Positions 32,661-52,373 of a DNA stretch of 64,000 nucleotides are shown here, in pieces. Source of the DNA: Ktedonobacteraceae bacterium (GTDB taxonomy: Bacteria; Chloroflexota; Ktedonobacteria; Ktedonobacterales; Ktedonobacteraceae). Location: positions 1-64,000 of the forward strand of contig DASRBN010000035.1 of NCBI GenBank assembly GCA_035653615.1. The letters are read 5' to 3'. How positions within the stretch are numbered: the stretch's first letter is position 1; every line of letters begins with the position of its first letter. The translations under genes and the position numbers were made by a program. The notes below the pieces were generated by a model. That model was not told the origin of the DNA, ran no database searches, and was given only the letters and a program-made list of their open reading frames with translations.

Positions 32661-33420
32661 ATGGCGCATGACCGGTCCCTGAGACCCTGGCTGGTCCTGG
32701 CGGCGGTCCTCTGTGGTTTCTGCATGGTCGTCCTCGACACGACCGTCATGAACATTGCCATTCCCACCATCCAGACCAGCCTGAAGACAGATCTGCCCTC
32801 GGTCAGTTGGGTGCTCAACGCCTATAACCTGATGTATGCAGTACTCTTGTTCACCGTGGGGCGCTTTGCCGACCAATATGGACGCAAGCGCCTGTTCTTG
32901 CTCGCCATGCTCCTCTTCAGCCTGGCTTCCCTCGGCTGCGCGCTCGCGCCGGTCTGCGGGCGGCTCCCTGGTACGCCCGCCATGAGCTGGCTGATCGGCT
33001 TCCGCGCACTGCAGGGCATGAGCGCAGCCGGGCTGACCGGGGTCAGCCCGGCGATTGTGATGGCCGTTTTCCCGCATGAAAAACGTGGTGCCGCCCATAG
33101 CGGTCTATGTCCAGCGCTGGCTGGGGCGGCACTGGGCGATTGGCCTCAACATCCTCGGCAACGCCGTGATGTTTGCGGCTCCGGCGCTCGTGGCCACTGC
33201 CTGGCTGATTGGAGCGACTGCCGTGCTGGGTGGGATGGCCGGCCCCTGTGGACCATCGCGGCAGCATCCCTGCTTGGACGCAGGGTTCCTTCCGTATTGC
33301 AGGGACGGGTCAATGCCGCCTACCGCTTCCTGGGCACCGGGTTGGCGGCGGGTCCACTGCTCGGGGGCCCGCTGGCGCAGGTGTTTGGCCTCCGCTTCGC
33401 GTTCATCGTGTGCGCCTGCG
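32661..33420 (+). pseudogene. Chimeric MFS transporter remnant (DHA2 N-terminus joined to another MFS C-terminus)
   Basis: The first ~145 residues are a DHA2 exporter: VVLDTTVMNIAIPTIQTSLK, the loop motif GRFADQYGRKRLFLLAMLL and ending at FPHEKRGAA, exactly where relatives continue into helix 5. From about 33096 the sequence changes to the C-terminal helices of a different MFS type, partly in another frame (AIGLNILGNAVMFAAPALVA) and then back in the first frame (LLGRRVPSVLQGRVNAAYRF, LGGPLAQVFGLRFAFIV). At least two frameshifts and a family switch mean it cannot encode a working transporter. The join may mark a deletion between two former transporter genes. Confidence 0.75.
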
Positions 33421-33426
33421 ATGATC

Positions 33427-33861
33427 CCCCAGAACCAGATGAGCACAATCCACCCGATGCTCCAACCAATGGGAACCCGAAGCACAGACCAGCAACACTA
33501 TCGAAGAACAGACACACGTTCACACTCATCTCTGCTTCTTCCTTTGACGATGAAAGGCCGTCCAAGCGATCCTGCCTGGGCAACCGACAGGAGGTACTGC
33601 TCCTATTGTCGCACACATGTTCGTGAAGCCTTGCCGTGTGTGATAGGGTGGGTGCAACGAGCCGAGATATCGGCATTTGCCATGAAATGTATACAAAATA
33701 TGACAGAAGAGAGCATCCTACCAGCCCAGATTACTTTTCCCTACGCCCAGCCATCCCATTTTGTCTTAAAACGTATACACCTGGTGCTTTCTCTCTGCAA
33801 GAGAGCCATAGACAACTCCATGCCCCAGAGCATCTGCTAGCCGGTTTTCGCCTGAAAATAG
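33427..33861. other. Region between transporter remnant and island boundary
   Basis: No gene recognised; the open frames have no ribosome sites or family resemblance. It ends at the left TGTCTGACA cluster. Confidence 0.45.
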
Positions 33862-34022: not shown

Positions 34023-35207
34023 TTACTCGACGAGAAATATTTCTGAGTTCTCGACCACAATCGCATGTGGGCGGTAACGCTGCCCTTGCAGTCGCATGTC
34101 GAGTACGCGAATGTGCATACCTGGAGAAGCTTTTTTTAGCTGCGGAAAACGCTCCTGAGGAGCAACGATACGGACTTCAGCCTCGCGCCATTCCACTGTT
34201 ACGACCCAGTAATACCCTTTTAGCTCTATTGTTCTAATTTTTCCCTCGAAGCCTAGCACAGCCATTTGCAGAGCTATAGAGAGGTGAGGATGATTCGCCT
34301 GCCACGCCCAGAATGGTTGACACCAGGGACGAAATTCGCACAAGGCACAGGTCTCACCAGGGGTAGCGAGTTGTTCAACTGAAGCACATTCCTGTACCTG
34401 CTTGATCAATACTCTAGCCTCATTCTCAACAGCGCGACAGGTCTCGGGATCAATCGCTACTCTGTACATGGCTCCTGTGAGCGGATAGGTCACCCACGCT
34501 TCCTGTGGCCACTCGCCAAATGTCTCGTACCACAGCAGCGCATAGAGCTGGAGTTGCCGCTCATACCGCGCAGGTAGCTCGTCACGTAACGCAGATTTAT
34601 AATCGAGCAGACGCAGACCTGTAGGAAGCCTTTCGGCATGATCCACCCTTCCAGTGAGAAGCCCATCGTGGGATTGTATTGGTATCTCGACCAGCACTTT
34701 CCCTTCACTTATCTGCTTCATCTCAGAGAGGGGGACTTCCTCCGCTCCCGTTGCACCTCGGTTTTCATACCCGATCCGCCCGCTTGTAAACTGCTTTGTT
34801 AGGCGGAGCGACTCGGAAGCGAGAGCCTCTAGTGCGCGATGTATCCGTTCTTCGTCACGAGGAAGCAGTTGTTCACGAGGGCGGCTTTTTTTCTGTTCCT
34901 CTTGTTGAGATAATTCGTGATGAAAACGCCGGTGGGCTTCCGCAATGATTTCACTTCGATTATCAGACCTGATGGGATACTCGGTGAGCGATTGGAGCGT
35001 ATTGTGAAACGCGATGCCCACTCGTGCGGCGTACGCTGTACGGCGCTCATAGCCCTGCGATCGCTCAAAGCACGCGCGCAATCCACAAGTACGGATCATT
35101 TCAATGGAGGTTGGCCCAAACGGTGCTTCAGGCCGTCCACGCGGCGGCGTGAGGTCTCTTTGGTTCAGGCACCAGGTGAATGCGGTCTTACGTGAATGCA
35201 TAGTCAT
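34023..35207 (-). CDS. RecB/Cas4-like PD-(D/E)XK nuclease with Fe-S cluster motif
   Basis: A 394-residue nuclease. The core has GIAFHNTL (the conserved His), LTGRVDHAE and LRLLDYKSA (Asp then D-x-K), and RYERQLQLYALLW (Q-x-x-x-Y motif), as in RecB/Cas4. Four cysteines placed like the Cas4/AddB 4Fe-4S site are visible: one in IRTCGLRACFE and three in CALCEFRPWC. The start overlaps the DruE stop (ATGA), so translation is coupled and the nuclease belongs to the helicase operon. It probably processes DNA ends or strands exposed by the helicase. Confidence 0.85.
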   Translation of the reverse strand: MTMHSRKTAFTWCLNQRDLTPPRGRPEAPFGPTSIEMIRTCGLRACFERSQGYERRTAYAARVGIAFHNTLQSLTEYPIRSDNRSEIIAEAHRRFHHELSQQEEQKKSRPREQLLPRDEERIHRALEALASESLRLTKQFTSGRIGYENRGATGAEEVPLSEMKQISEGKVLVEIPIQSHDGLLTGRVDHAERLPTGLRLLDYKSALRDELPARYERQLQLYALLWYETFGEWPQEAWVTYPLTGAMYRVAIDPETCRAVENEARVLIKQVQECASVEQLATPGETCALCEFRPWCQPFWAWQANHPHLSIALQMAVLGFEGKIRTIELKGYYWVVTVEWREAEVRIVAPQERFPQLKKASPGMHIRVLDMRLQGQRYRPHAIVVENSEIFLVE

Positions 35208-38200
35208 CGTGTCACCAGATGATTGAGAACCCAGAAAGGACGACGCTCAAGGTCAAACGTCGTGTGGACGGCACAGCGCAAACCATGCTTACTCAAGAAA
35301 GCTTGCCGCTCATCGCTCGTTGGCCTGGCTTGCAAAGGATGGATGACCCAGATTCCCACCTCGAGGCCTTCCTGGTCGCGCAGGACGCAAGGGAAATACT
35401 GATCTCCGACAACGCGTCCGGGTAAGATCTGCCAGCTCGTCTTCGCATATTCTGCAAGCGGAACTGCACTACGGCTCATGTGGGCGGAACTCAACGATGG
35501 CTCCTGATGACGAAGTACAAAGCGCAGCAGTGCGGCACCTAATGCTCGGTCCAGTAGCAGGTGAAGTGCCTGGTTGCGATAATCAAACATACAATGATAG
35601 CAGGCCCCGCCACAGGCTGGATTTGCACACTGCTCCCCCAACTCCAACGCCTTCTCTAAAATGGGCTGCATATTTTGCTCGATGGCGCGTGCATACCCCG
35701 CCCCACCGGGTACGTCATCGTAGAGGAAGACTTCACCGTGCAGGCGGTGATCGAGCCCACGCCGCACCGCCCGAACTCCAACTTTGAGTTCTCCGGGGTC
35801 TATTTGCAAGATAATAGCCGCTGCATTCGCAACGAGCACGCCGAACGAATACCAGGCCGCTCTACCCGACGGCTGTTGGAGAGGAGCATCCATCGTCGCT
35901 GGCAGATCAACTCCCAAAAGAATGACCTCTGAGACGAACTGGTGACCGAGAATGACCTGGTTGCGGAAATCCGTTGTGTTGGGACACCAATCACCCGCAC
36001 GAGGCCCGGCGTTTCTTCCGCTAAACGGTGGAACACTCGCTGGATAGCGGTGTGAGCCGGGGTTATCTGGATCGAGCGCACGCCCACACACCGGGCAGAT
36101 AATAAAGCCGGGAAAGTCGGGATTTGGGCCTTTGTTACAGGTAAAGAGCTTGCCTCGGCGAACTCGGACATAGAGGCTTGGGGCAAAGGGAACTTGTGGC
36201 TTGCCCGTCGTAAAGGATGTTTCCCCTACAAGCAGCCGAGGTGGAATGGCGTACCCGCCGCGTTCCCGCCCGCCCCTCTCGTACAATTCACCGCCCCCAT
36301 TGGGCAATGCACAGTCTACGGTGAAGCCTGGAGGACGCACATAAGGGAGTGCCATCACATGGAAACTCCCGCATTCCGCGCACTGGTCCGGAGCATCCTC
36401 GATGTTGTCAACGAGCATGATAGATTGACAATCTGCGCACTCTATCAATGCGCCAGAGGGATGATAGTGAGGATTCGCGTTGTACCGGTCATAGACGCCC
36501 ACACTTTGATAGATATAGGTATTGGGAAACTTACCCCGAATCACTTCCGCTCCTGGCGCATACTCGGCCAGGGCTATTTTCAGGTCCCGCTCCATACCAT
36601 CGTTTTCGATTATCTCCCACTCGTCATAGTCATATGACGATTTTTCTGATGGAATGAAAAGGCTCACCACGTCCACCGGGAAGGCATATTTCGGAAGGTA
36701 ACCAGCCGTGATGAGTTCATGCAGGACACTTGCTTTCGCCTCACCACCATTGACGGTAGATTGCACTTCCCCAACCAGGTCGCTTATCCATGCGCCGAGA
36801 CGATGGAGAAAGGCAGAACCGACGATCTGTTCGCAGCGCGCAATCAGCGAAGCTCGATGTGTTGCCAGGTATTGCCGTAAACGTACGGCGCCTTGCATAT
36901 TGGTAAAATCGGCGATGGTACCCCAGGCGGCGAAGAGGCTTCCCTGTTGTGATGCTTGCCTGGACTTGAGCATGGAAGAGAAGAAATCCTGCAAAATCAA
37001 GGATCGCACATGACGGCGCGCAATGACAGCATTATTGAGATAAAGAGCTGGAACACGCGGCGGGTTACTGACAATTTCTGGCGGATGCGCGAAGTAATAC
37101 TGATCGTGAGGACGAAACTGCGCAAATGCCAGGACCGTCGCCAACGCACTTCCGCGTCGTCCTGCGCGGCCTGCACGCTGTTGGTAGTTGGCAACGGTTG
37201 GAGGCATATTGCGCATCCCTACGCTTAACAGGCTACCGATGTCAATGCCCATCTCCATCGTGGTTGTGACCGAAAGCACATCAATGCGATAATCATCAGG
37301 CTGCTGGTGATCGTGAAAGAGGTCCTGGAACCAACGCTCTTCGTCACGCGCTTCTTTGCCTGAAATCTGTGCTGTGTGTTCTGCAGAACGTAATGGATAG
37401 GGATCATCAAACAAGGACGCAGGCAGAGCGTGCAGTGCCGCGCGTCGGTAGAAATTGCGGATAGACGAAACGGGGGTAGGGCTGGTGCGTTGGCCGCAGC
37501 GCAGGCACACATCAAAGAGCACTCCACCCATAATGTAGGCACAAGCAGTGCATTGATGAACTGTGTCCCCTAGCGGCTGCAACTCAAATCCATCGATGCG
37601 AATGCCATAAGGAACCTCGTTGCCATATTTCTTGCCCGCCCTGTCCAGGATATTTAATCCCTTCAGTGCATTCCAGAGCGGTGTGACGAGCTCGCTCACC
37701 CATTTGGCGGCTGCCTCCCTGTTAGGAAGGCGCCCCAGCCTGACAAGCGCCTCTGAAACAGCGATCACATAGCGTCCGAGCTTGCGTTTGTTCTGGAGGT
37801 TATACGAGATCGTTTGGCGTCCGTCACCAGGCGATTTGACATATCCCCAGACAAGCACAGCTCGCTCGTACCCCTTCACCAAGTTTTCCGGCCACTCCCA
37901 CGGAGCGAGTGGACGAGGTGGCAGCAACACATTTTCGGTTGCCAGGATGCGCGTGACAGCCTGGAGAAAAAGGCGCGTCTCATCCTGGCTCAGTTGTGGA
38001 AATGCTCCAATGAGTTCTGGTAACACAAAGCGCCAGTACGCCAATCCCAACGGCTCCAATGCAAAATCGCGTTGGGAGAGTTCACGGCGCAAGCCAACGT
38101 GAAACGCAGTTTCTGCCTCTTTGTAGGCGGCTTCGTAAGAGGCTTCATCTCCATTGTACATCCGAGCGAAATAGTCGCGGATGCGCCCATTGGTTGGATT

Positions 38201-40666
38201 GATGCCGCGCTGTAATTGTAGAGCAATGACCTGCTCACGCACCTGCTCAAAAGTCATCGGTTGTGGATGGGGATGTCTTCCCGTGCCTATGCATGTAGTA
38301 CACGGTTTCGTCTGCACACTCTGCTCCTGACCAATAATATAGGGGCCTTTTCCCTCGTCCTCGGTAGAGCCGGTGCCAGCACAATCAGGGCAGGATAACA
38401 GCACGCGATAGACGAGTTGACGAAAGATGTCGTTATGGTGATCATCGCGCAAGTCCGCCGCGAGTTGAGCGGCTTCCTGCCGCGAATCCGTAAAAAGCAG
38501 GGTTTTGCGTCCATAATTGGGAGGGGGACCGTAGGCCGCACGTGGCTGAACACGAAAACCATCCTCGGCCACAATTGAGAATGTGCGTGGGCCTTTCGTG
38601 CGTAAGGGTTCAATGACTTCCCGTCCGTCCTTCCCCATCTGGCGGTAGTTCCGACAACGCGGGCATTGACTGGGAAATTGACTGACCTGGATATCATTTT
38701 CTTGTGCCGGCTCGGCCGGATACACCGGGCGTGCGTAACTATCATGCTGATGCGTGTGCAGGGTGGTCCGGGTTGAGCGATATTCACACGAGGCATAAGC
38801 ATCTGGTGCCTCAACGCCGAATATCTGAAACTGCTGGATGTCTTCCCGTTTGCCGCTCAGGTCGTCGCTCCAGGGCCAAAGGCTGCCTTGTGCAGAATCT
38901 GGAATGCCACCGAGATAGAGCAATCCACAATGTCGGCACGAAAACAGCTCGAGTACCCGTGCTCCGCACTCGCACCAAGGGCGAGGGTCCATGTAGAGCT
39001 TCCCGACTGGGCGAGACGCAACGCTGGTCGGTAAAGGCGGTGCAGCGGAGCAGTCTGGGTCCATACAGGCCCAAATACCATAGATCCCGCGGAAAAAGAG
39101 ATGCATACGCATGGACAGGAGAGGCGGCGTATCTGGAAGGGCAGAGGCGCGTGCAAAACTACCCGCCGCTAGAATTCCTGCCGTGGCCCTCTCGCGCTCC
39201 TCAGATATGCTTAATCCCGGCCAGCATTCCTCAGCCAGCACGTCAAGTAAAGTGGCACGACGTGCCGTGCGTTGGCGCACCCAGTCGATATCATGATTCT
39301 GCTCGAGCAAAGCGTAGAGGGCCACCTGCGGGTCGACCTGTGTATCGACAGGACCCAGTTCAAGTTCAGAGGCGAGCTGTTCGATGGCAGGCACGGGATC
39401 GTTGAGCGAAAAACGCTCATAGAAGCGTCCGAAGGCGTACAAGGATCGAGAAGACGCCTGGCGAGTGGAGGTTCCCCGCGCTGCGTTGCCGGTCCTGATC
39501 AGCGTAAACCGACTGGCAGGTTCGCCAAACAGGTCCGAGATAAACTCCAGTAATTGCTCATCAGCATCTGCCGGGACGGAAGCTGTTGTAGCTATGGCGC
39601 GAAACTGCGGTGAACCTGAAGGTAATCCCAGCCGTTCTTTGAGACGCCTGACCAGATAGGCGACTTCGGTTCCCTTCGCCCCCGTATACGTGTGCGCCTC
39701 ATCCAGCACAAGCGTTATACGTGCCTCCGGTGTACTCTCCAGCCACCGTCGCGTGAGCTCAAAGATCCTCGCCTCAATGGGGCGGATCAGCATATACTCA
39801 AGCATGGAGTAGTTCGTGACCAGGATGTCAGGGGGCGCGGACTGGATATCCCAGCGACAGAGCATCTCTGTGCTGTCCGGACGCGGCCAGGTGCCAGTAT
39901 CGCGCAGATCGGCGCGCAACTTGTCCCAATCCTGCCTGAGCTTCTCAAGATAGGCGGCGAAGCGATCTCGCGGCTGCTTGTAGGCCCAGTTTCCGGTGGG
40001 TTGCGACATACCGGTATACATACCGAAGTGAATGACGTTCCCCTGCAGGTGTTCTTTCTGCCACTCAGGCGAGGTTCCACGGGCGAGGATACGGCGCAGG
40101 CGCGAGAGCTGATCGTTCACTAGAGCATTCATCGGGTAGAGCACGAGGGCACGCATGGCCGCCGGGCGACGTTCATGCCTCCGACTATGGAGCCAGCCTT
40201 TCTGGGGATCAAAACGACTTGGACGTTCCTGGTCAGCAACCGGTTCCCACCACGGGGCCTCCCGCAAAATATCTGCCAGAATGGGGAGGAGAAAGCTTTC
40301 GGTCTTTCCAGAGCCTGTCCCGGTGGCGACCAGCAGGTTAGGCTGATCTCCGTAAGCGGTCAGTAGAGCTTCTTCCTGGTGGGTATAGAGGGGAAAGCGG
40401 TCAATGGGCACGCCATGTTGCACCAGTGCAGCCAGCCCAGCGGGAACGCTCTGCGGATACAATGCCTCAAGTTCTGCGAGTTTATGTGCTGTTGGAAATG
40501 CTGGGATTGCTTCAATAAATGGGGCTTGAGCAACCACTCCCCGTTGGCGGAGGATCTCCCCGCGTTCAGCAAAGATAGCAGGATGCGCGATCTTATAAGC
40601 CGTTTCCAGGTATTCGATCATCGACTCTTTGATGTGTTCGAATGCCTCACTTGGTGTGAGATGCAT
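35204..40666 (-). CDS. druE: DruE-like giant DEAD/DEAH helicase with DUF1998
   Basis: An 1820-residue SF2 helicase. The P-loop ATGTGSGKTE is near residue 115, followed by VTNYSMLEYMLIRP, the DEAH box LVLDEAHTYTGAKGTEVAYL, LLFTDSRQEAAQLA and the motif V/VI region MEMGIDIGS...YQQRAGRAGRRGSA. Several zinc-ribbon-like Cys pairs occur, including two CxxCxGTG repeats. The C-terminal DUF1998 region has YDDVPGGAGYAR and a four-Cys segment (ANPACGGACYHCMFDY). Length and domain order match the DruE hallmark of Druantia phage defence. AAGGAGGGG precedes the ATG. It lies 49 bp after druA. Confidence 0.85.
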   Translation of the reverse strand: MHLTPSEAFEHIKESMIEYLETAYKIAHPAIFAERGEILRQRGVVAQAPFIEAIPAFPTAHKLAELEALYPQSVPAGLAALVQHGVPIDRFPLYTHQEEALLTAYGDQPNLLVATGTGSGKTESFLLPILADILREAPWWEPVADQERPSRFDPQKGWLHSRRHERRPAAMRALVLYPMNALVNDQLSRLRRILARGTSPEWQKEHLQGNVIHFGMYTGMSQPTGNWAYKQPRDRFAAYLEKLRQDWDKLRADLRDTGTWPRPDSTEMLCRWDIQSAPPDILVTNYSMLEYMLIRPIEARIFELTRRWLESTPEARITLVLDEAHTYTGAKGTEVAYLVRRLKERLGLPSGSPQFRAIATTASVPADADEQLLEFISDLFGEPASRFTLIRTGNAARGTSTRQASSRSLYAFGRFYERFSLNDPVPAIEQLASELELGPVDTQVDPQVALYALLEQNHDIDWVRQRTARRATLLDVLAEECWPGLSISEERERATAGILAAGSFARASALPDTPPLLSMRMHLFFRGIYGIWACMDPDCSAAPPLPTSVASRPVGKLYMDPRPWCECGARVLELFSCRHCGLLYLGGIPDSAQGSLWPWSDDLSGKREDIQQFQIFGVEAPDAYASCEYRSTRTTLHTHQHDSYARPVYPAEPAQENDIQVSQFPSQCPRCRNYRQMGKDGREVIEPLRTKGPRTFSIVAEDGFRVQPRAAYGPPPNYGRKTLLFTDSRQEAAQLAADLRDDHHNDIFRQLVYRVLLSCPDCAGTGSTEDEGKGPYIIGQEQSVQTKPCTTCIGTGRHPHPQPMTFEQVREQVIALQLQRGINPTNGRIRDYFARMYNGDEASYEAAYKEAETAFHVGLRRELSQRDFALEPLGLAYWRFVLPELIGAFPQLSQDETRLFLQAVTRILATENVLLPPRPLAPWEWPENLVKGYERAVLVWGYVKSPGDGRQTISYNLQNKRKLGRYVIAVSEALVRLGRLPNREAAAKWVSELVTPLWNALKGLNILDRAGKKYGNEVPYGIRIDGFELQPLGDTVHQCTACAYIMGGVLFDVCLRCGQRTSPTPVSSIRNFYRRAALHALPASLFDDPYPLRSAEHTAQISGKEARDEERWFQDLFHDHQQPDDYRIDVLSVTTTMEMGIDIGSLLSVGMRNMPPTVANYQQRAGRAGRRGSALATVLAFAQFRPHDQYYFAHPPEIVSNPPRVPALYLNNAVIARRHVRSLILQDFFSSMLKSRQASQQGSLFAAWGTIADFTNMQGAVRLRQYLATHRASLIARCEQIVGSAFLHRLGAWISDLVGEVQSTVNGGEAKASVLHELITAGYLPKYAFPVDVVSLFIPSEKSSYDYDEWEIIENDGMERDLKIALAEYAPGAEVIRGKFPNTYIYQSVGVYDRYNANPHYHPSGALIECADCQSIMLVDNIEDAPDQCAECGSFHVMALPYVRPPGFTVDCALPNGGGELYERGGRERGGYAIPPRLLVGETSFTTGKPQVPFAPSLYVRVRRGKLFTCNKGPNPDFPGFIICPVCGRALDPDNPGSHRYPASVPPFSGRNAGPRAGDWCPNTTDFRNQVILGHQFVSEVILLGVDLPATMDAPLQQPSGRAAWYSFGVLVANAAAIILQIDPGELKVGVRAVRRGLDHRLHGEVFLYDDVPGGAGYARAIEQNMQPILEKALELGEQCANPACGGACYHCMFDYRNQALHLLLDRALGAALLRFVLRHQEPSLSSAHMSRSAVPLAEYAKTSWQILPGRVVGDQYFPCVLRDQEGLEVGIWVIHPLQARPTSDERQAFLSKHGLRCAVHTTFDLERRPFWVLNHLVTR

Positions 40667-40715
40667 AGGAAACCCCTCCTTGCCTAACCGCTCGCGTGTT
40701 CTGCTCCAGAACGGC

Positions 40716-41924
40716 CTACTGAGTTGCCCCTACTAAATGCTCCCAGGTGGTTTCTCTTGTCCAACGCACATAGTCTGGATACCTGCTCGCCCTCGGGATA
40801 AGCCAGCGATTGACGGCAAGCGTCCCGATGCTCGCCGCAGAAGAGCGCACAGCCGCTCCAACCTCTGCTTCCCCGCGTAAACACTCTCGCCAATTAGGAA
40901 CGAGAGGAACTCCATAGATTTCTCGACTGATGCCGTGTTGAAGCATGTGAGGGTCGAGGCCAACCCGGCGCAAAGCCTCGCGCGCTACCCGTAGGCGCCA
41001 GTTTGGTCCTTGTCCGAACTGGTGTCCAGACGCGTAAGGGTGCCCTTCACGGCGGAGAAGCTCCCGCATCAGCAGGAAAAGCGGCTGGGGAATGTGAAAA
41101 TGCCCCCAGCCGGTGGTCTGCCCAACGTGGACAAAGTCTACCGTCCCCGGCAGTTTGAGGCGGTTGTAGAGGGAGGAGCGCCCGAGTGCCGAGGTGACGG
41201 TAATCAGCAGGAGTTGTGCATGTTTATATTGCTGGCTGATAATGCCGCTCCGATGATTATACTTGGCGGCAAAAGTGTCGCTGACTTCTTGAGACGCCAT
41301 CAACGCTGCGGTAACCTTTCCCCCGAGCAGCAGGGAATAGGGGGGCACTGCTCCAACAATATGGGCGTCCATCACGTGTACAAGCTGCTGCCGCCGCTCA
41401 TCAAGGCTCCAGCCAATCCACGTATCACGTGCCTTCAAGTTAAACACGGGGTCGGTGAGGGCAAAGAGACCGAGGAGCTTACCATTAGCGCGATCGCGGA
41501 CAAGAAAACGCATCCGGCGCCCATACCCCCGTGAGACAGGCACCGACCATAACAACGTCGCGAGGCGAAATAAAGCAGCATCTTCGGTATCCGACGAGAC
41601 GAGAGAGATCTGAGGCTCAACAGCCTCAGGAATAACTTCGTGGCCCTCAGCAAAATGTGGCAGAAGGGCGCGGCCATAGCGAGCAAGAAATTGCTGCTCG
41701 CCTTCTCTAAACGCGGCCCTCTGTGCTGCATGACGGGCGCGCACAAGATCCTTCGTATAAATCTGCTCTCTCCCATCCGGTGATGGACTCAGTCCAATAA
41801 GAGCGAGATGCGCTAGAAGTTCCACTCGGATGCGTTCGCGCAACTCAGCTAGATCACTCTCTTCAATGCAACTATACTCTTCACTCTGTACCTCATCGGT
41901 AAGCTCCCTCAATTGCGTCACCAT
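40716..41924 (-). CDS. druA: DruA-like protein (DUF4338)
   Basis: A 402-residue protein of the DUF4338 family, named DruA in Druantia. Characteristic segments are FLVRDRANGKLLGLFALTDP, NLKARDTWIGWSLDERRQQL, VGAVPPYSLLLGGKVTAALM and LGRSSLYNRLKLPG, then TTGWGHFHIP and the C-terminal RWLIPRASRYPDYVRW. The biochemical role of DruA is not established; the fold may bind nucleic acid. It is followed directly by druE, as expected for the system. Confidence 0.85.
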   Translation of the reverse strand: MVTQLRELTDEVQSEEYSCIEESDLAELRERIRVELLAHLALIGLSPSPDGREQIYTKDLVRARHAAQRAAFREGEQQFLARYGRALLPHFAEGHEVIPEAVEPQISLVSSDTEDAALFRLATLLWSVPVSRGYGRRMRFLVRDRANGKLLGLFALTDPVFNLKARDTWIGWSLDERRQQLVHVMDAHIVGAVPPYSLLLGGKVTAALMASQEVSDTFAAKYNHRSGIISQQYKHAQLLLITVTSALGRSSLYNRLKLPGTVDFVHVGQTTGWGHFHIPQPLFLLMRELLRREGHPYASGHQFGQGPNWRLRVAREALRRVGLDPHMLQHGISREIYGVPLVPNWRECLRGEAEVGAAVRSSAASIGTLAVNRWLIPRASRYPDYVRWTRETTWEHLVGATQ

Positions 41925-42182
41925 AAATGAAGGACTCCAATCTTCCCCTAAGTCGTTTCCTACATTCTAGCAACTCCTTTCGCCGTTTGTCTATAGCTCT
42001 GGTATAAGGTCGATACGCATTAAGCTGGCAGTATTGCCACGCAAGCCACCAATAAGGGTCTGTCTAAGCTGCCTGTTGATTCTGCAGAAGGTATACAGCG
42101 CCACTTTCGCAGCCACCGGCTACATATGTGTGAAATCCGCCGGACGCGTGTATTTATCGTTTCAACCTCTTTGTGCGTTCTC

Positions 42183-44516
42183 TCAGGAATCCTCTTCTCC
42201 CGAAGAACCATACCGCAATACATTCTCCACGTAGAGATCGATCAGGTGGAAATAGTATGGCGAGACGGTATATTGCTTGTGACGCACAAAAAGCACCCCC
42301 ATTGTTTTCAGAAGCTCTTCTTTATCAAAGTGTGAGCTTCCCTGCATGATCTGGAAACGCCTGACGAGATGCGCTCGTGCTTGTCCCTGGAGATTCATGC
42401 TTGTTGGAGAACCTACGAGAAAGGCATCCGTATCATCATACCAAATACCCTGATAGAGTTGAACATTTTCGCCTCTTTCAGGTAAAAACATTCCCAGGTC
42501 GTTATAAATCCTCGTGATCAGTCTGCGGTGGTATTTCCCCTGGCTCGTTGCTTTGCTGTCAAAAATGCGGGCAATCCGTTCCAGCCATTCTCCGCTCGTT
42601 AACTCTTGATAGGTGAGCATAGGATGTGTCGCAGCTACCTCTTCTAAAAAGGCATCATAGGCGAGCAATTGCCTGTAAAAAGCCTGAGAGTCCCGAGCTT
42701 TTCTCGTGCTAGGTTGCTTGCTACCATCCAGGAGACCCTGTTGCATCATCTGCTCCAAGGGTAAGAGTGTCGTAGACCGCTCTTGCTGAATCCTCTCATA
42801 GTGTGGAGCTAACTGAAAGTATTTGACAGGATAGGCCGTGGAATATTGTTCTTGATGTCGCTGCTCGATAGCATCGTAGTCGTAGAAGATACGTTCTTTT
42901 AGGTTCTCGATAGCGACGAAAAGATCACGGCCCACAATGATATCAAACTCGGGTAGGTCCTTGACCTGCCCCTGCTCTGAGATGCGCTTTCGTTCTGCGA
43001 GGAGCTTCTCATATTGCTTATCCCAGTCAACCCCCCATCCCTCGAGCATCTCATAAAATGGCTCGCTTTGTGCTGGGTCTCCTAGATCGATAAAGTGCAA
43101 CTGCTGTTCTGCAAACCAGAGCGCTGTTGTGATGGTATCGCCGTCAAAGGGCCTCCGACGAACAAATGCCAGTTCATCAGGGATAAATGGCAAGGGGTAA
43201 CGCGCCGTGCCATGAATGATGGCGCATTTCAGATAGAGTTCGCTCAGTACTACGTCAAGATTTCGCTTAAAATCCTTATCGGACAGTTGAAGCATGGAAT
43301 AATCGAGATAATCTCCACCTTCTAACGCATCAGGGTCGTTGGTATTGACATTGATGGACTGTTTAGGAACGTTGGGATGCTCCCTATAGAGTGGAGGGTA
43401 GGGATCATCCCGGCCAAAGAGGAGCCCATCCTCCTCAAAATCTTCTGCCGCCGCATCCAACAAGACGATGACTCCTCCCTGCGGTGCAGAGGCAATATCA
43501 TCTAAGGCCGCAAAGCGGAGCGCGGGGTACATGCCTTGAAAGAGATCAAGATAGGCGTCGAGGCTGTGTGTGCGTCTCAAGCGATTATCATAGATGCCTA
43601 CCTCAGTCAGTTGCTGTACAGCTATATCGGCTGTTTTGGATAAAGGCGCCAGCGTGAAGTTACGTTCTCGCAGATGGGCGACTATGCCTACCTCTCTAAG
43701 ACTGACAATAAATTGCTGGGTGAAGTCAAAAACGATCTTGCCTCTACCTGCATTCACATCACGCAGGTCGTGATACTTGATCTGCACCCGTTTACCCGGA
43801 AAGGTAACAAGGCTATAGACTGGCGATTCTTGCTCAACTGCTGCCGTCGTGAGATGGAGCAAAACGAATCTGCTTCCAACTGCACGCTTTCCAAAGAAAG
43901 GGGTCCCTGGTCGCAACGGCGGAGTCACTTTGCCAAAACACCTGGCGTGAGGAATGACACGAAACTCTTGTGTTGGAGCGTCCTCACTATTAGCCGGAGC
44001 ACCGCTCAACTCAATTTCCACGCAATAGTGAAAGTCACTGTCCTTCCCACCTGGACGTGCATATACATAGCATTTGTCCTGGCCGACGAAGCGGTTCGTC
44101 TTATCGCCTCGGAAAAGCCTGAACTGTAACAGTTTGAGCAGCACATGCAATGGTAGGTCGCTAAACGCTATCTCCCGCCGAGGAAGGGGAGTACGTGGTT
44201 GATACCAGGTCAGGACCAGTTCACTGACTTCGGCCTCTCGCGGATAAAGAACGTAGACCGCCCATTGTTTATTCAGCGCCCCATCAAGGGTATCATACTG
44301 AAATGACCTGTAAGGAAATTTGATTTGATCGCGGATGGCGTTGTGAACGCGACCAAAGTCAGCAGCATTCTGGGAGCGTAACGCTTTGGGAATGAGATAG
44401 CGCACGAGCCGGAACCGCTCTTCGAGCAGTGCATAATTTTGAGGGCGCTCGATAACTAGCGTGGTTGTCTTCGCCGTGTGTTGTTTGGGGTGAGCCTGGG
44501 TTGTTTGGGTTGTCAT
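42183..44516 (-). CDS. 777-aa protein with Argonaute MID/PIWI-like features
   Basis: I do not recognise this family with certainty. Residues ~370-460 resemble an Argonaute MID domain: GGVIVLLDAAAED, PPLYREHPNVPKQSINVN (a K-Q dyad like the 5'-end pocket) and FKRNLDVVLSELYLKCAIIH, comparable with the N-L-x-L-K-x-N helix. The C-terminal ~90 residues resemble the end of PIWI: DDTDAFLVGSPTSMNLQGQA, then LLKTMGVLFVRHKQYTVSPY and YFHLIDLYVENVLRYG. A clear DEDX tetrad is not visible, so it may be inactive. The start overlaps the upstream stop (ATGA) after GAGGAG. It could be an unrelated novel defence protein instead. Confidence 0.45.
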   Translation of the reverse strand: MTTQTTQAHPKQHTAKTTTLVIERPQNYALLEERFRLVRYLIPKALRSQNAADFGRVHNAIRDQIKFPYRSFQYDTLDGALNKQWAVYVLYPREAEVSELVLTWYQPRTPLPRREIAFSDLPLHVLLKLLQFRLFRGDKTNRFVGQDKCYVYARPGGKDSDFHYCVEIELSGAPANSEDAPTQEFRVIPHARCFGKVTPPLRPGTPFFGKRAVGSRFVLLHLTTAAVEQESPVYSLVTFPGKRVQIKYHDLRDVNAGRGKIVFDFTQQFIVSLREVGIVAHLRERNFTLAPLSKTADIAVQQLTEVGIYDNRLRRTHSLDAYLDLFQGMYPALRFAALDDIASAPQGGVIVLLDAAAEDFEEDGLLFGRDDPYPPLYREHPNVPKQSINVNTNDPDALEGGDYLDYSMLQLSDKDFKRNLDVVLSELYLKCAIIHGTARYPLPFIPDELAFVRRRPFDGDTITTALWFAEQQLHFIDLGDPAQSEPFYEMLEGWGVDWDKQYEKLLAERKRISEQGQVKDLPEFDIIVGRDLFVAIENLKERIFYDYDAIEQRHQEQYSTAYPVKYFQLAPHYERIQQERSTTLLPLEQMMQQGLLDGSKQPSTRKARDSQAFYRQLLAYDAFLEEVAATHPMLTYQELTSGEWLERIARIFDSKATSQGKYHRRLITRIYNDLGMFLPERGENVQLYQGIWYDDTDAFLVGSPTSMNLQGQARAHLVRRFQIMQGSSHFDKEELLKTMGVLFVRHKQYTVSPYYFHLIDLYVENVLRYGSSGEEDS

Positions 44517-47500
44517 GCTTCGTTCTCCTCTGCTGGACGTAACGCTTTTTTGAGGTCGGCAAGGAACATCGTGAATGCAGCCTGGTAAGAACTGGGGGCT
44601 TGACGATCAAGCGCGCCTTGCACAACGATGATCGCTGCCTCGGAAAAGTCCGTGACCTTTCGAAATTCGCGGGTATAGTATCCTAGTGGTCGCTCCTGCC
44701 CGCTGACAAGGTTGATATAGATGAGCTTACCATCGGGTCCGACAGTGTGCCGAATACGATCGAGCTTGTCTTGTGCGTGCCTGGTAAAGGCTGACTCGTT
44801 CAACGACGGATGCCACAGCGGATCGTCGATGGGAAGGGAAAAGCGATCAAGGGTGAGGTCGTTGTAGTTTTTACAATCGATGAACCAGGGCTTTGTGTCA
44901 ATGCGCAGGTCCGCAATCTCGAAAAGCGCATCAGGTAGCGATTCTATCGGAATACCATCCTTCTCCAAAAGCGCGGTAACCGCCTCCTCTCCGATTGCTC
45001 CAGCCAAAATGGCTTGGAGGCAATAGGGGGTGAAGAAATGAGAGCTTGGATGATCGAACTGTAAGTCGTACCCTTGATCGAGAAAATGGTCGCGAATCAC
45101 GGGGTTTTCCGCGACAATGGCATAAACCCCATCCAGGTGGAAAATCCGACTACCAGGTACCGCGAGCGCAAGGGGCAGAAGGTCAAGTTCAGGTGTGAGA
45201 TTCAATCGACCATGCGCATAATACGGGGAAGAAGCGGCGCAATGGTAGCGACTCACCACCTCTGCATGAAAATCATGCCGGAGTACTGCCCGGCGCAGCG
45301 CTTCCCAGTCATGCCTGGCTTCCAGGTCTTTCCCCTGACTGCGAACTAATTCGAGCCGGGTAACTAAAGTCTGAATCGCTTCCCGACAAGCATCGTTTCT
45401 GGCTCGTAGACGCGTGTCATGTCGACGGCGTGCCTCGCGCTCGAAATCTGTTGTCTTGCGTGCAACGTCAGTAAGCACGGATTGGAGGTTGGCAGAGGTA
45501 AAAGGCGCATGCTGCTCTCTGATCGCTTCATACCTGTCATCCATAAATGCCTGGAATGCACGGAAGACTTCTGGACTGAGCAACGCAACTTGAGCAGGCG
45601 TCTCACCCCAGGTCCGTTCCACACGGCCCAATGCTTGAATAAAGATGGCAAGCTGATTCAGGAGACAGTCCTCCGCCGTCGTTCCCTGCTGATAGCGTAC
45701 ATTCCACTCTCCAGGTCGGTTGATGGTACTGAGAACCTGGCGAAAGCGCGCCTCAGAAATCAGTTTGGCGCAGAAGAGCTTTGCCTGATACCACACATTC
45801 TCCTTCCGACCAGCGAAAACATCGTCGAAGGATTGCTCCTGTGGATCAGGATTCGTGAAAAAGTAATAGGGAGCCTCGAGCAGCCCAATATGCGTGAAGT
45901 CCTGTGCTGGCCCGCCTTTCTCGTTTGTGTACTGGAGATTGACGCCATTGCCAGCGGAGAGATACTGGGTGACGACGATCACCGGATCCGCCGTCCAGAA
46001 GAGCCGCGTAAAAGCCTGTTCGGCTTCTTTGCTTTGTCGCACTTGTGTAGCAAGCTCGGCATTAAAAAAGACCACGGTGATTTTGCGTTGAGCTATCGTG
46101 AGCCTAAAGGCATCGAACCAGGGGGTATCGGGCAATGGCTCGACCTGATAGACACCTGCCTCCTCCCCGTGACTGGCAAAAGTGGTAAAAAGAAGTCGTA
46201 TCTGGTGAAAAGAATTCAAAAAGAGCAGTTGCCGAGGACGCTCGCCCCCGTGATCAAGCAGCCAAAACAGGCTGGCGCAAAAACGGTGCATGCGCTGGCT
46301 CCGATGTCCACCCGCATCCTTTTCAAATTCATCATCGTGTGTCACCGCTTCCAGGAACTGAGACAGGCGTTCTTGAACAGGATCAGCCTTGTCGAGACCA
46401 TCGACGAGTGCGACACTCATCTGGTGACCTCCTCGCTGCTTTGCCTTCTGCGCACTCATGAGTTGGATGTCGGAGCGATCCTCATCGGTCGTAGGAAGCA
46501 GGAGGTCCTGTTGGTCGAACCAGTCAAGATCGAAATGATGAATACAGCGTGGCAGATCGGCAGTTGCCGAGAGGCCGAAGACAAGGAACTTCTCTGCGAG
46601 AGCATGGAGCAAGTTTTCAGGTGTTTGCAGCATCTGATAGTATTGTACTTCAACCTCTTCGTTATCGGTACGTTGCTCAAGGTCACTAATGTCGAAGAGA
46701 TCATATCCTCCACTGAGCAGGCTTCCACGCTGGGTAGTCTGCGTTTGTTCTTGACGAGGTAACCGTGGAATGACGGCAACTTGATCGAAAAAGTCCGTAT
46801 TATTAAAACACTGGCGCAGGATCTCCCAATAGCGCACTTCTTCATCACGCTCCATCTCTTTGAGCAGCGCGATGGTACGCGTCGTGGCCGTTCCAACAGC
46901 GTTAAAGAGCCACCGTGCCGCAACCCAGTTCGGTTTGCTGCGCTGCATCTCTAGCTGGAAAGCGCGCTCAGTTTGGTTAATATAAAGCGGATTGGTGCTG
47001 ATCACATGCTGCGTGCGAAACACTGCCGGGGTAAAACGCTGGTTTGCTGGCGTGGGTGTTTTTTCCAGCGTGAACTGATTGATTGTCGGATAGCTCAGCC
47101 CTTTTCCCTGCACGCCATCGATGATCTCGACGATCTTTTCGATACGTTTGCGGATATTGGGGTGAAGGGGAAAATCAGCTTTCGGGAGCTTATGATGGGC
47201 CATCGCCCGATAGAAGTGTGCCATGAAAGCAAAGGGATCAGTGATCTGGGGGCCGCGGCAAATCAATGTGACAAGATCGTGTTCGAGGAAATCAAACTCA
47301 TCGAGAAAAACGACCAGGCGTTTCTCGGCAGCAAGATCGGTGAGGCTGCGCATCTGCGCACCGTCGAAAAAGCCATAGTAGGCTTTGTGGAGCGTCACCA
47401 ACATAATGCGGACTTCAGAGCGGCGGCGAAAAGGAATGGCCGGGAAGAGTGCCTCGACGATAGGGTGACTTACCAGCCAGGTATAGACCTTGCCCTGCTC

Positions 47501-47998
47501 ATTTTCATCACGTGTGACCTGAAGAACCCAGCGGACCGCCTGGAGCACTATCCGCGCTTGCGCATCAACGTACCTGGATAGCCAGTCCGGCAATATCCGT
47601 TCCTCTTTTGTCATCTCAAGCACTTGCTGGCAGGCACGACGAATAGCAACGATTTCCAGGCTTTTCAGGCGGCTTTTTTGGCGAGCCCGCGCGAGGTAGG
47701 ACTTGAAGCGAGGATCAGCGAGCAATGCTTCAAAGGCCGCTCGCTGGGTCAGAAGCACTTCCCGCACGACCTCGAGATCACGCCGTAAGATGACATACTC
47801 TCCTGGCTTGAATCGCGCTGCCATTTCTTCGAGCAGTTGTTTACGGTTAGCCATATAGATGAACTTGCGATCAGGATTCGCATGCACAACATCGGGAATA
47901 CTGCTGCTTTTGCCCAGGCCTGTTGGCCCCAAAACAAGTTTGAGGCCATGCTCATACGCATCAATCGCACGTTGATAGTAACCAGGGTATCCTGTCAT
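44513..47998 (-). CDS. Helicase-like ATPase fused to a PD-(D/E)XK nuclease domain
   Basis: An 1161-residue protein. The N-terminus has a P-loop (LVLGPTGLGKSSSIP) and FIYMANRKQLLEEM; motif II is probably RLVVFLDEFDFLEHD. In the second RecA-like half, TQYLSAGNGVNLQY resembles motif V and FIQALGRVERTWGE motif VI, as in Cas3- or DinG-type SF2 helicases. The C-terminal ~150 residues contain FEIADLRIDTKPWFIDCKNY, a D...D-x-K nuclease site. It couples unwinding to cleavage, probably of invading DNA. The gene overlaps the next by four bases, and I find no described Druantia partner that it clearly matches. Confidence 0.7.
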   Translation of the reverse strand: MTGYPGYYQRAIDAYEHGLKLVLGPTGLGKSSSIPDVVHANPDRKFIYMANRKQLLEEMAARFKPGEYVILRRDLEVVREVLLTQRAAFEALLADPRFKSYLARARQKSRLKSLEIVAIRRACQQVLEMTKEERILPDWLSRYVDAQARIVLQAVRWVLQVTRDENEQGKVYTWLVSHPIVEALFPAIPFRRRSEVRIMLVTLHKAYYGFFDGAQMRSLTDLAAEKRLVVFLDEFDFLEHDLVTLICRGPQITDPFAFMAHFYRAMAHHKLPKADFPLHPNIRKRIEKIVEIIDGVQGKGLSYPTINQFTLEKTPTPANQRFTPAVFRTQHVISTNPLYINQTERAFQLEMQRSKPNWVAARWLFNAVGTATTRTIALLKEMERDEEVRYWEILRQCFNNTDFFDQVAVIPRLPRQEQTQTTQRGSLLSGGYDLFDISDLEQRTDNEEVEVQYYQMLQTPENLLHALAEKFLVFGLSATADLPRCIHHFDLDWFDQQDLLLPTTDEDRSDIQLMSAQKAKQRGGHQMSVALVDGLDKADPVQERLSQFLEAVTHDDEFEKDAGGHRSQRMHRFCASLFWLLDHGGERPRQLLFLNSFHQIRLLFTTFASHGEEAGVYQVEPLPDTPWFDAFRLTIAQRKITVVFFNAELATQVRQSKEAEQAFTRLFWTADPVIVVTQYLSAGNGVNLQYTNEKGGPAQDFTHIGLLEAPYYFFTNPDPQEQSFDDVFAGRKENVWYQAKLFCAKLISEARFRQVLSTINRPGEWNVRYQQGTTAEDCLLNQLAIFIQALGRVERTWGETPAQVALLSPEVFRAFQAFMDDRYEAIREQHAPFTSANLQSVLTDVARKTTDFEREARRRHDTRLRARNDACREAIQTLVTRLELVRSQGKDLEARHDWEALRRAVLRHDFHAEVVSRYHCAASSPYYAHGRLNLTPELDLLPLALAVPGSRIFHLDGVYAIVAENPVIRDHFLDQGYDLQFDHPSSHFFTPYCLQAILAGAIGEEAVTALLEKDGIPIESLPDALFEIADLRIDTKPWFIDCKNYNDLTLDRFSLPIDDPLWHPSLNESAFTRHAQDKLDRIRHTVGPDGKLIYINLVSGQERPLGYYTREFRKVTDFSEAAIIVVQGALDRQAPSSYQAAFTMFLADLKKALRPAEENEA

Positions 47999-48037
47999 GA
48001 CAGTGCCTTTCTCACTGGAGGCAGTTCCTCCAATGGG

Positions 48038-49024
48038 CTAATGAGAGTCAGAGGTATTGCACCCAGCATACCGTTCCGTTAGCTGAAGTGTCTCAGTAGC
48101 GATAGCTTCCCGTAGTTGGAGAGGGGAAATGACTTCTACTGATGCCCCCCATTGAAGGATCCAGGAGACCATTTCGAGAGGCTCGGACACCTGAAATGTG
48201 ACACGACAGCCTCCATCTTGTTGTGGTATCACACGCTGGCTGGGATGCCAGAACGCCTCCTGTACAAGACGTGCGGTGTCGCCAAAAAAGAGCAATTCTA
48301 CCATCTGAGGAGGAGTATCACGCCAGACCACTCCCCAGGCTTCTGCAAACATACGATTAGGATTGAAGCTGGAGGGGATGTCGAACCGCTCATTGGTTAA
48401 CTCGGCAGCAGCAATGCGATCAAGTTTGAAGGTGCGGATTTCCCCACGCAGTTCATCGAAGCCAATAGTATAGCAACTATTCGTCGCACCATAGGGTTCA
48501 ATGCAGTAAGGATGAAAACGCCGCTCTGTGGGAGTCCCTTCACGATCACGGTAATGCAGATAGACAACCCGTCCCTCGGACCAGGCCTGTGTCATCGTTT
48601 CTAACACGGCAAGATAGCGTTCATGCAATGGCAGCGACCGCTGCAGCAGGGCGGCCTCCTCGATATAGCTCGAAAAGCGGGGGGCGTCATCCTGCACAGC
48701 ATTGGCGAGCTTGAGCATAACCCTCTCTGCATGGGGATTACGATCACTCTGATGGCGTGAAAGCAAACGGCATGCCAGGGACAACGCCAGCACTTCATCT
48801 GGCGTCAGTCGTAGAGGGCGGGTCGCCTGATGAAAGCTTATCTTGTAGCGCCGACCACGTTTGTGTATATCTACTCCTGTCGATGATAAGCGGGCCAAAT
48901 CGCGCCGGACCGTGCTAACATCAACCTCTAAAGATTCCGCCAGTTCACTAGATGTGAGACCCGCTGGATGACGACGCAATAGCGCTTCAAGTTCTTCAAG
49001 GCGTGAACCGTAAGCTTGTTCCAT
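48038..49024 (-). CDS. WYL-domain transcriptional regulator
   Basis: A 328-residue DeoR-type HTH plus WYL protein. The N-terminal winged helix is LRRHPAGLTSSELAESLEVD, VSTVRRDLARL; the WYL core has VVYLHYRDREG, FHPYCIEPYGATNSCYTIGF and the RTFKLDRIAAAEL strand, with a C-terminal WCX region (PQMVELLFFGDTARLVQEAF). WYL proteins often repress phage-defence operons and respond to nucleic-acid ligands. The ATG at 49024 follows AGGGGAG. It is the first gene of the island operon, and the palindrome in its own promoter suggests autoregulation. Confidence 0.9.
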   Translation of the reverse strand: MEQAYGSRLEELEALLRRHPAGLTSSELAESLEVDVSTVRRDLARLSSTGVDIHKRGRRYKISFHQATRPLRLTPDEVLALSLACRLLSRHQSDRNPHAERVMLKLANAVQDDAPRFSSYIEEAALLQRSLPLHERYLAVLETMTQAWSEGRVVYLHYRDREGTPTERRFHPYCIEPYGATNSCYTIGFDELRGEIRTFKLDRIAAAELTNERFDIPSSFNPNRMFAEAWGVVWRDTPPQMVELLFFGDTARLVQEAFWHPSQRVIPQQDGGCRVTFQVSEPLEMVSWILQWGASVEVISPLQLREAIATETLQLTERYAGCNTSDSH

Positions 49025-49058
49025 GTAACACTCCCCTATTTGATCTTTAGCTCTGTTT

Positions 49059-49102
49059 ATTATACCAAAAGCGCGCAAAAAAAGCAACTTTTGCGCGCTT
49101 TT
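49059..49102 (-). promoter_or_regulatory. Promoter with overlapping 14-bp inverted repeat, probable WYL operator
   Basis: On the minus strand, TTGCTT (49087-49082) and TATAAT (49064-49059) are 17 bp apart. A perfect inverted repeat, AAAAGCGCGCAAAA at 49067-49080 and TTTTGCGCGCTTTT at 49089-49102, covers the spacer and -35 box. A bound repressor would block the polymerase. A hairpin in RNA is an alternative reading. Confidence 0.65.
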
Positions 49103-49808: not shown

Positions 49809-52373
49809 TTAGAGCAGAAGGGTCTCAGCTGGAATCTGCCTCTTCTGCGCGGCCAGTAGCATAATCTGCTTCAGCATAGAGGAAGCAGGCTGTTTACGGA
49901 TGTGCGGCAGGTGGGCGACGATCAGCAGCTTATCCCTGGCCCGGGTGACGGCCACGTTGAGCAGGCGCATGGCGTCAGACCCCCATCCTTCACGCAGAAA
50001 GGGGGCAATCCTCAGGTCAGGCGCTTCGACAACATCGAAGATGACGACGCGGAATTCCATCCCCTGAAAGGCATGGACTGTCCCCACTCTGCAATAGATC
50101 TCCAGGTCCTTGCCCTGCATCCGTTCCTTGATACATTCGCGCTGGGCTGTATACGGTGTCACGATGCCGATGTATTCCGCATACCGCTCGTTTATGGGGA
50201 CACTAGAAAGGACTTGCTTTGCCAGGATGAGATCAAGCTCGGCATGGTACTGGTTATAGCGCGACTGGCCATTGTCCGGGTGATACGCTCGCGCGCGTTT
50301 GACATTCCCAGTATCATAGAGCACAACGGCGTGTTCAGGCTCTGGTTGATAGGCGCGCCTGGGTGCCAAGGGGTTGCGATCCTTGAGCCGCCTTTGATAG
50401 ACCGGACCGCGAACCAGGTCGCAGATGTCTCTGTGCATGCGACTCTGATAACGGAGGAGGATGCAGTGGTGCGTTCCCTGCTCCGCCTCCTCCAGGGTGT
50501 AGTGCCCGTGAGCGAACACGTCGAGACCGAGCCAGCGGTACACCAGGTCATCCTTGAAGATACAGATGGGTGCAAGCTGCTGTGGGTCGCCAACGATGAT
50601 CAGGTGATGCCTGGCGCAATCAGCCGCCACTTTTACCGCTGGCGGTGGGGCCATCGATGCTTCATCAACCAGCACGACATCCCATTCCTGGGCGAGGAGC
50701 ACCGGGTTGAGGTAGAGCGCGGTGAGCGTTGCGGCGATGATTTTGGCCCTCTCCACAGCCTGCCGTTCCGCTTCGCGCTTCAGATCCGCGACCTGCTGAT
50801 CGAGGCGGGCCAGGGTTCCCTCAAGTGAGGCTACCTCCTGTTCCCAGGAGGCGATGTCACGCTCGATCTCGGCAATATGCAGGTTGCCTTCAGCCAGTTC
50901 CTGCGTCAGATCGTTGAGTTGCCTGGTCAGCGTGTCCTGCTGCTCTACCGCGTGGATCGGTCGCGCATCACGCGCTTGTTCCCAGTATGCGATAGCAGGA
51001 GCAAGGCTATCCCTTCGTTGCCTGGCTTGTAGATAAGCATCGATATCCTGCCTTTGCTCCTGCTGAAGCTCTTTGATCTGCATGGCAAGGTCATGGAGCT
51101 GAGTTGCCAGCGTTTGGACGGTTTCCTCCAGATCCTTTTCTCGCTCGCCCGTCCATACCCCAATCACGAGACGAATCACGGACGGATACTTCCGAAGGTG
51201 TTCGAGCTTCCTGTAGGCAGTCTCGTACCGTATCCATTGCTCCTGGTAAAACGCTTGCAACGGTTGCAACTGGCGATCCGCTTCTTCCCAGTCGGCTCTG
51301 GTGTCTTTCATGGTCTGCTCTTCTTTCGCATACTGATCCAGGTGCAGTGAGAGATGCTCCAGGATCGGGGCCTGCCTCGCATGCTCCTCAGCTTCCAGGT
51401 CGGCCAACGCGCGCTCGGCTCGCTTACATTTCCGCAGTAACTCAGCGGATCGCTGCTGCCACGCCTGCACTTGCTCAGGCAGTTCCTCTCGAGATTCGGT
51501 GAGTTGCTTAAGCAGGGTTGCGCGCCTGAGTTCCAAAATTGTCATCTCCTGGCGATTGGACGCCACGCGGTCGGCCACAATGTGTGGCAGGGTGACGGTA
51601 CGATAGTCCTCTTCTTCGAGTTTGGCCAGGTGCGGATTCCCGAAGCGGATCAGGCGCTGCCCGTCGAGCCACTGCCCCAGCCTACATGCACGAAGAAAAT
51701 GCGCCAGGCAGATGACGGCGTTGTCGAGCGAGACGTTCGTGTGTGAGACGATGAGCACCCGAGAACCAAAGAGCGTGGCGTGGAGCAGGGCAATGGCGGC
51801 CAGCACGTTGGTCTTGCCAGTGCCTGGCGGTCCCAGGACGACCAGCAATGCGCTTGCCAGCGCACGCCGGAGCGCCTGGCGCTGTGCCTCGTCGGGGACG
51901 AAGGCATCCTGAATGGTATCGACCAGGTGCGAGGCTGCCTCATCATCGGGGCAGTCGAGTACACCGAAGAGTTTGAGCCCTAACTGGGCCGTGGTCGCTT
52001 TGCGAAGGAGAGCTTCTTTCAGTTTCCTGAGCTGGAAGCCACAGTCCACGACGAGCTGCGCAGAGGTCAGCGTGCTCTCCATGAGTCGCCGCGTCACCGT
52101 GATGATCACAGTATCCTCTTTGGTGCCTGACAGTTCGACCGGGAGCGGATTAATGAGGTCTGCACTGGAGAGCCTCAGGTCGGTTCCATCGGGCAGATCC
52201 CAGCGCCCTTTGACGAGCGTGAACGCATAGCGATAGCGTCGGTGCTGCTCATATAGCAATTGGCCATCGGTCACCGCGTAGTGCCTCTTTCCGGCGGACA
52301 AGGCGATGGCCTTGTCAAGAGCCTCCTCCATCTCTGGCCGAGGATCCTTCTGTGGACGAAAGGCATTCGACAT
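49809..52373 (-). CDS. UPF1/DNA2-like SF1 helicase with central coiled coil
   Basis: An 854-residue superfamily 1B helicase. The P-loop is VVLGPPGTGKTNVL near residue 185, then VLIVSHTNVSLDNAV; motif II is DVVLVDEASMAP, motif III VGDPQQLAPI, motif V VHAFQGMEF and motif VI NVAVTRARDKLLIV. About 300 residues between motifs Ia and II form charged coiled-coil helices (for example KCKRAERALADLEAEEHARQ), as in several phage-defence SF1 helicases. Its 3' end faces the YgiT-like remnant. It may be a second, separate defence gene. Confidence 0.85.
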   Translation of the reverse strand: MSNAFRPQKDPRPEMEEALDKAIALSAGKRHYAVTDGQLLYEQHRRYRYAFTLVKGRWDLPDGTDLRLSSADLINPLPVELSGTKEDTVIITVTRRLMESTLTSAQLVVDCGFQLRKLKEALLRKATTAQLGLKLFGVLDCPDDEAASHLVDTIQDAFVPDEAQRQALRRALASALLVVLGPPGTGKTNVLAAIALLHATLFGSRVLIVSHTNVSLDNAVICLAHFLRACRLGQWLDGQRLIRFGNPHLAKLEEEDYRTVTLPHIVADRVASNRQEMTILELRRATLLKQLTESREELPEQVQAWQQRSAELLRKCKRAERALADLEAEEHARQAPILEHLSLHLDQYAKEEQTMKDTRADWEEADRQLQPLQAFYQEQWIRYETAYRKLEHLRKYPSVIRLVIGVWTGEREKDLEETVQTLATQLHDLAMQIKELQQEQRQDIDAYLQARQRRDSLAPAIAYWEQARDARPIHAVEQQDTLTRQLNDLTQELAEGNLHIAEIERDIASWEQEVASLEGTLARLDQQVADLKREAERQAVERAKIIAATLTALYLNPVLLAQEWDVVLVDEASMAPPPAVKVAADCARHHLIIVGDPQQLAPICIFKDDLVYRWLGLDVFAHGHYTLEEAEQGTHHCILLRYQSRMHRDICDLVRGPVYQRRLKDRNPLAPRRAYQPEPEHAVVLYDTGNVKRARAYHPDNGQSRYNQYHAELDLILAKQVLSSVPINERYAEYIGIVTPYTAQRECIKERMQGKDLEIYCRVGTVHAFQGMEFRVVIFDVVEAPDLRIAPFLREGWGSDAMRLLNVAVTRARDKLLIVAHLPHIRKQPASSMLKQIMLLAAQKRQIPAETLLL

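Follow-up and report, generated by a model that had tools for sequence, protein, structure and literature searches.

A DdmDE-like pair and a compact Druantia trio as probable neighbouring modules of an acquired defence island in a Ktedonobacteraceae bacterium

The stretch of DNA analysed here (the window) comprises the first 64,000 nucleotides of contig DASRBN010000035.1 from a Ktedonobacteraceae bacterium. It carries a block of six co-directional ORFs on the minus strand, from 34023 to 49087. Their positions, and the two ATGA overlaps at 44513-44516 and 35204-35207, are those given in an initial annotation made from the sequence without database searches. In transcription order, the block reads as follows.

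48038-49087, minus strand: HTH-WYL-WCX transcriptional regulator (TTG start; alternative ATG at 49024)
44513-47998, minus strand: DdmD-like SF2 helicase with a C-terminal PD-(D/E)XK nuclease, 1161 aa
42183-44516, minus strand: DdmE-like long Argonaute, 777 aa, with a PIWI site predicted to be inactive
41925-42182, minus strand: inter-module gap, 258 bp
40716-41924, minus strand: DruA (DUF4338; PADLOC DruA1, Pfam DruA)
35204-40666, minus strand: DruE, YprA-family SF2 helicase with an MZB/DUF1998 domain, 1820 aa
34023-35207, minus strand: DruK, RecB/Cas4-like PD-(D/E)XK nuclease with a four-Cys (Fe-S) pattern (PADLOC DruK, Pfam PDDEXK_1)

The WYL gene is followed after 39 bp by the ddmD-like gene, which overlaps the ddmE-like gene; 258 bp then precede druA and 49 bp precede druE, which overlaps druK. 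The initial annotation took the six genes to form one transcript. The overlaps and short gaps speak for this and the 258 bp before druA against it, so that one or two transcripts are both possible. Within that gap (41925-42182) a search found no terminator-like site, and the single promoter-like match, at 41993-41964 (10/12), is at chance level, 0.5 such matches being expected. The base composition of the block is foreign-looking, as GC3 lies between 0.49 and 0.57 in all six genes versus 0.66 to 0.75 in the flanking host genes.

As for the surroundings of the block, a tyrosine recombinase/integrase is encoded nearby at 52488-53366. It lies beside a gene for a UPF1-like SF1 helicase (49809-52373) similar to PADLOC MkoA/MkoC. 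Neither is counted as a member of the system, since they have no matches in the homologous loci and since the GC3 of the helicase gene is host-like (0.69). On the far side of the island, the segment 56079-58999, in which GC is lowered, holds a gene for a PLD-domain protein and, next to it, one for an ISL3-type transposase. At the other end, a major-facilitator-like transporter gene, judged by eye from the translations to be broken over two frames (32661-33840), adjoins the defence block.

The two large proteins upstream of druA were the least familiar members of the block. Taken alone, the 1161-residue protein matches the V. cholerae DdmD of the PDB at 9e-8 with phmmer and the PADLOC DdmD profile at 2e-7, a score of only 27 bits. 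A seven-row profile of its family, however, reaches V. cholerae DdmD at 2.3e-26 and Lactobacillus casei DdmD at 3.7e-6. Its helicase motifs are intact (Walker A GPTGLGKSS, DEFD, SAT, QALGRVER), and its C-terminal nuclease keeps GEEA..D..IDCK, which aligns with GE..D..LDSK of the V. cholerae protein. The initial guess of a helicase-nuclease fusion was thus right, and homology identifies the protein as a putative DdmD-like helicase-nuclease. In the related protein of another genome (G258, discussed below; L055 156-2384), helicase motif II reads FWDEFD and not FLDEFD.

The 777-residue protein gave no meaningful match to Pfam, NCBIfam or PADLOC, nor to the PDB with phmmer. Its AlphaFold2 model, computed with relatives from other genomes included, has a pLDDT of 78 and a pTM of 0.72. 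An earlier fold from six sequences had been weak (pLDDT 69, TM 0.25), and it improved after a fragment was swapped for two divergent full-length relatives. When the model is searched against the PDB with Foldseek, DdmE chains of V. cholerae and L. casei take the first four places (E 3e-20 to 8e-19), and the next non-DdmE Argonaute follows at 1e-8. The TM-scores to DdmE, 0.5-0.58, are moderate, with an rmsd near 12 Å and a loose placement of domains in the model, and identity in the structural alignment is 12-14%. The sequence profile of the family has L. casei DdmE as its sole significant match in the PDB (6.7e-5), the second match standing at 0.04. Fold and profile thus bear out the earlier description of this protein as PIWI-like and argue for a DdmE-like long Argonaute. 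Where the first catalytic Asp of the PIWI domain is presumed to lie, the family appears to have an invariant Arg (R453), a position mapped by strand order and secondary structure rather than by superposition; by the same mapping, the RDG-like position is not conserved. The arginine suggests that the PIWI site is inactive. Q386 and K430 are invariant in the family, and from human AGO2 we take them to lie where Argonaute MID domains bind the 5' end of the guide, an assumption that serves as a lead only.

The two proteins would thus make up a two-gene system like those of V. cholerae and L. casei, with a helicase-nuclease whose motifs are intact and a long Argonaute. The window pair differs from these by the low identity of its DdmE-like protein, by PADLOC recognizing DdmD only faintly and DdmE not at all, and by having Druantia genes as neighbours. 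It might also be assigned to the branch of ApsAB, described in E. coli ST38 as the helicase-nuclease ApsA with the Argonaute-like ApsB. ApsA and DdmD belong to a single continuum, and the same motif order has been reported for ApsA (GxGKS, DExH, SAT, QxxGRxER, D..DxK; PMC11096173). The Argonaute partner speaks against this assignment, which we consider quite unlikely: the 777-residue protein matches DdmE in both fold and profile, whereas ApsB, here compared through its published description, is reported to be dissimilar to DdmE and to lack a conserved PIWI fold.

The DdmD-DdmE pair forms an independent unit. Among 400 sampled genomes of the phylum, together with two classes, a small minority contain a DdmE-like protein, and in six other genomes (L010, L011, L013, L031, L032 and, as a decaying copy, L017) a ddmD-like gene lies directly upstream of the ddmE-like gene with tight spacing. 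No DruA, DruE or DruK was found near the pairs of those six genomes, and a class-wide DruA search found none in G328, G321, G358 or G265. Scans of viral contigs for DdmE- and DdmD-like proteins yielded no relatives, and no relative of the 777-residue protein was found in plasmid records. Decay was seen in two genomes. In one (G358:C10; L017 and L018), DdmD has an internal TAG and DdmE lies in pieces over ~12 kb with transposase-like ORFs between them; in another (G340:C2:2096252-2097445), DdmD survives as fragments only. In such genomes the ddmDE-like system is being lost. In the draft genome G265, an intact ddmE-like gene (L015 4417-6696) lacks an adjacent DdmD-like partner, and none was found in the rest of that draft. 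Recombinase-like ORFs, recognized by eye, adjoin the pairs of two other genomes (L033 1254-2279; L010 8548-9588 and 11393-11857), as in the window, a hint that these modules travel on integrating elements.

The first gene of the block encodes a WYL regulator, as the initial annotation had it (Pfam WYL 5e-15, WCX 1e-16, HTH_11 3e-10). Because a WYL gene (VC1772) lies directly upstream of ddmDE in V. cholerae (PMC12409362), a likeness shared by the window, this gene is probably best assigned to the DdmDE-like module, as its regulator. No WYL gene was found beside the other Chloroflexota DdmD-DdmE pairs at the loci examined.

Downstream of the 258-bp gap, the identities and adjacency of DruA and DruE are certain. 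DruA matches PADLOC DruA1 at 3.9e-138 and Pfam DruA at 4.3e-81. DruE, the sole component common to all Druantia types (PMC13192584), matches DruE1 at 3.9e-298, which places the locus within Druantia whatever its type. Nevertheless, its scores are nearly even across the profiles of types I, II and IV (DruE1 991 bits, DruE2 881, DruE4 874), whereas a genuine type I DruE used for comparison gives 2068 versus 641 bits. Profiles for DruB, DruC and DruD found no match among the eight scanned proteins, and only 49 bp separate druA from druE, which sets the locus apart from type I. Those for DruM/F/G, DruH and DruF+DruL likewise found none among the same proteins at E-values up to 0.1, and this leaves out types II, III and IV.

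One could still imagine a plain type I system in which DruB, DruC and DruD had diverged into the 777- and 1161-residue proteins, given that the PADLOC profiles matched best are DruA1 and DruE1. Neither large protein, however, matches any Dru profile, although the same library finds a genuine DruD at 1e-147; both match DdmD or DdmE instead, and their homologues occur without Druantia. We regard this explanation as practically discounted. The initial annotation had been unable to place the two proteins among described Druantia partners, and the PADLOC profiles agree, ruling out an identity with DruB-D, F, G, H or L. In a Druantia system of a Nitrosococcus plasmid (L079 3034-5901), a 955-residue protein occupies the expected place of DruB/DruC and has no PADLOC match.

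As for the last gene, its assignment as a PD-(D/E)XK nuclease holds: DruK matches PADLOC DruK at 3.2e-21 and Pfam PDDEXK_1 at 8.7e-18, and Cas4 weakly. Eight residues (D189, D202, K204, Q218, Y222, C287, C290 and C296) are invariant in all six aligned DruE-linked nucleases, and C41, common to the three closest ones, completes a four-Cys Fe-S pattern like that of Cas4 or AddB. It differs from the PADLOC DruK proteins whose profile it matches by accompanying DruA. Among the open-access papers searched, none names DruK together with Druantia; no relatives were detected in viral contigs scanned for DruK-like proteins, and no DruK in phage records. Type I DruE has been reported with only an inactivated nuclease domain (PMC12458937), and the cutting would therefore most naturally fall to DruK.

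The three genes recur together. On a Meiothermus taiwanensis plasmid (NZ_CP021131.1) they stand in the order E-K-A, flanked at either end by transposase genes and without DdmDE. In the DruE tree, the proteins of the window, G258 and Meiothermus form a clade supported at 100/100, sister to the DruE of DruA-containing (type I-like) systems. DruE and DruK are also neighbours in three further genomes (G354, G013 and G044), and neither DruE nor DruK accompanies the DruA homologues of G108, G140 and G293. Recurrence and a monophyletic DruE, in three examples only, lead us to propose a compact Druantia lineage made up of the three genes for DruA, DruE and DruK. It would resemble type I by its DruA and by the position of its DruE, but have DruK instead of DruB, DruC and DruD.

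The association between the two sets of genes is not confined to the window. In G258, a genome of another genus of the same family, DruA-DruE-DruK is followed after 283 bp by DdmD, with identities to the window of 70% for DruA, 62% for DruE, 55% for DruK and 63% for DdmD, compared with 37-45% for other DdmD relatives. The contig ends inside DdmD, and a DdmE partner is thus out of view. The initial annotation would have counted it against its reading if homologues of the large proteins never occurred beside DruA and DruE; this DdmD, directly after the trio, is one that does. The order of the modules is swapped relative to the window, as if the block had been circularly permuted. No other ORF of the window has a counterpart on the G258 contig, which indicates that the block has moved. 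Together with the shared low GC3 and the nearby recombinase, this makes a transferred, mobile defence block the best reading of the six genes.

It is tempting to see in such a block a single integrated six-gene system, in which the Druantia helicase and the Cas4-like nuclease would provide the Argonaute-helicase pair with DNA fragments or with single-stranded sites of entry, and whose parts would no longer work alone. The association was seen twice with a different gene order, the four genes common to both loci have diverged to a similar extent (55-70%), and in the window the genes are co-directional, share one base composition and have no terminator-like site in the gap between the modules. 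On the other hand, each module occurs alone, and the largest gaps fall exactly at the module borders (258 bp in the window and 283 bp in G258 versus at most 68 bp within modules). With two genomes, both of one family, shared descent of a linked block suffices to explain the association. We consider an integrated system unlikely. Since both modules are found separately elsewhere, we favour, with a probability of about 85%, two neighbouring modules, a DdmDE-family module and a compact Druantia module, joined head to tail in an acquired defence island. The initial annotation had wavered between a new Druantia subtype and two defence systems fused together. The idea of two systems fits the block, the DdmDE-family pair standing without Druantia in other genomes, and that of a new subtype applies to its DruA-DruE-DruK half only. 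Our full-text search returned no description of a DdmDE-Druantia pairing in the text that it covered, where one paper lists both systems separately; an earlier report is possible.

How the two modules might act can be pictured from their studied relatives, which supply the use of guides, the targets, the order of events and the control by the WYL protein assumed here. By analogy with the solved DdmDE systems, whose mechanism has been reviewed (PMC12409362), the WYL protein would probably turn on the ddmDE-like genes. The DdmE-like Argonaute, presumably catalytically dead and carrying a short DNA guide, would find the DNA of a plasmid or another invader. It would then load the DdmD-like protein onto the strand displaced there, for translocation and cutting. 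As for the Druantia module, type III DruE engages replication intermediates containing single-stranded DNA (PMC13192584). The DruE of the compact lineage may similarly act on invader DNA with single-stranded parts, and DruK may cut the DNA opened by DruE. A more speculative scheme, which we hold to be very improbable, has DruE and DruK trim invader DNA and the DdmE-like Argonaute use the resulting single-stranded pieces as its guides; if true, it would explain the origin of DdmE guides.

Our analysis widens the DdmDE family by a divergent branch whose DdmE escapes the sequence libraries that we tried, so that surveys relying on them miss it. The proposed minimal Druantia, with a Cas4-like nuclease replacing the usual partners, would offer a simpler object for the study of the roles of DruA and DruE. 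Druantia III and Zorya II have already been shown to share DNA intermediates (PMC13192584). The repeated pairing of an Argonaute-based anti-plasmid module with Druantia makes it testable whether such modules are separate defences stacked side by side or work on common DNA intermediates.
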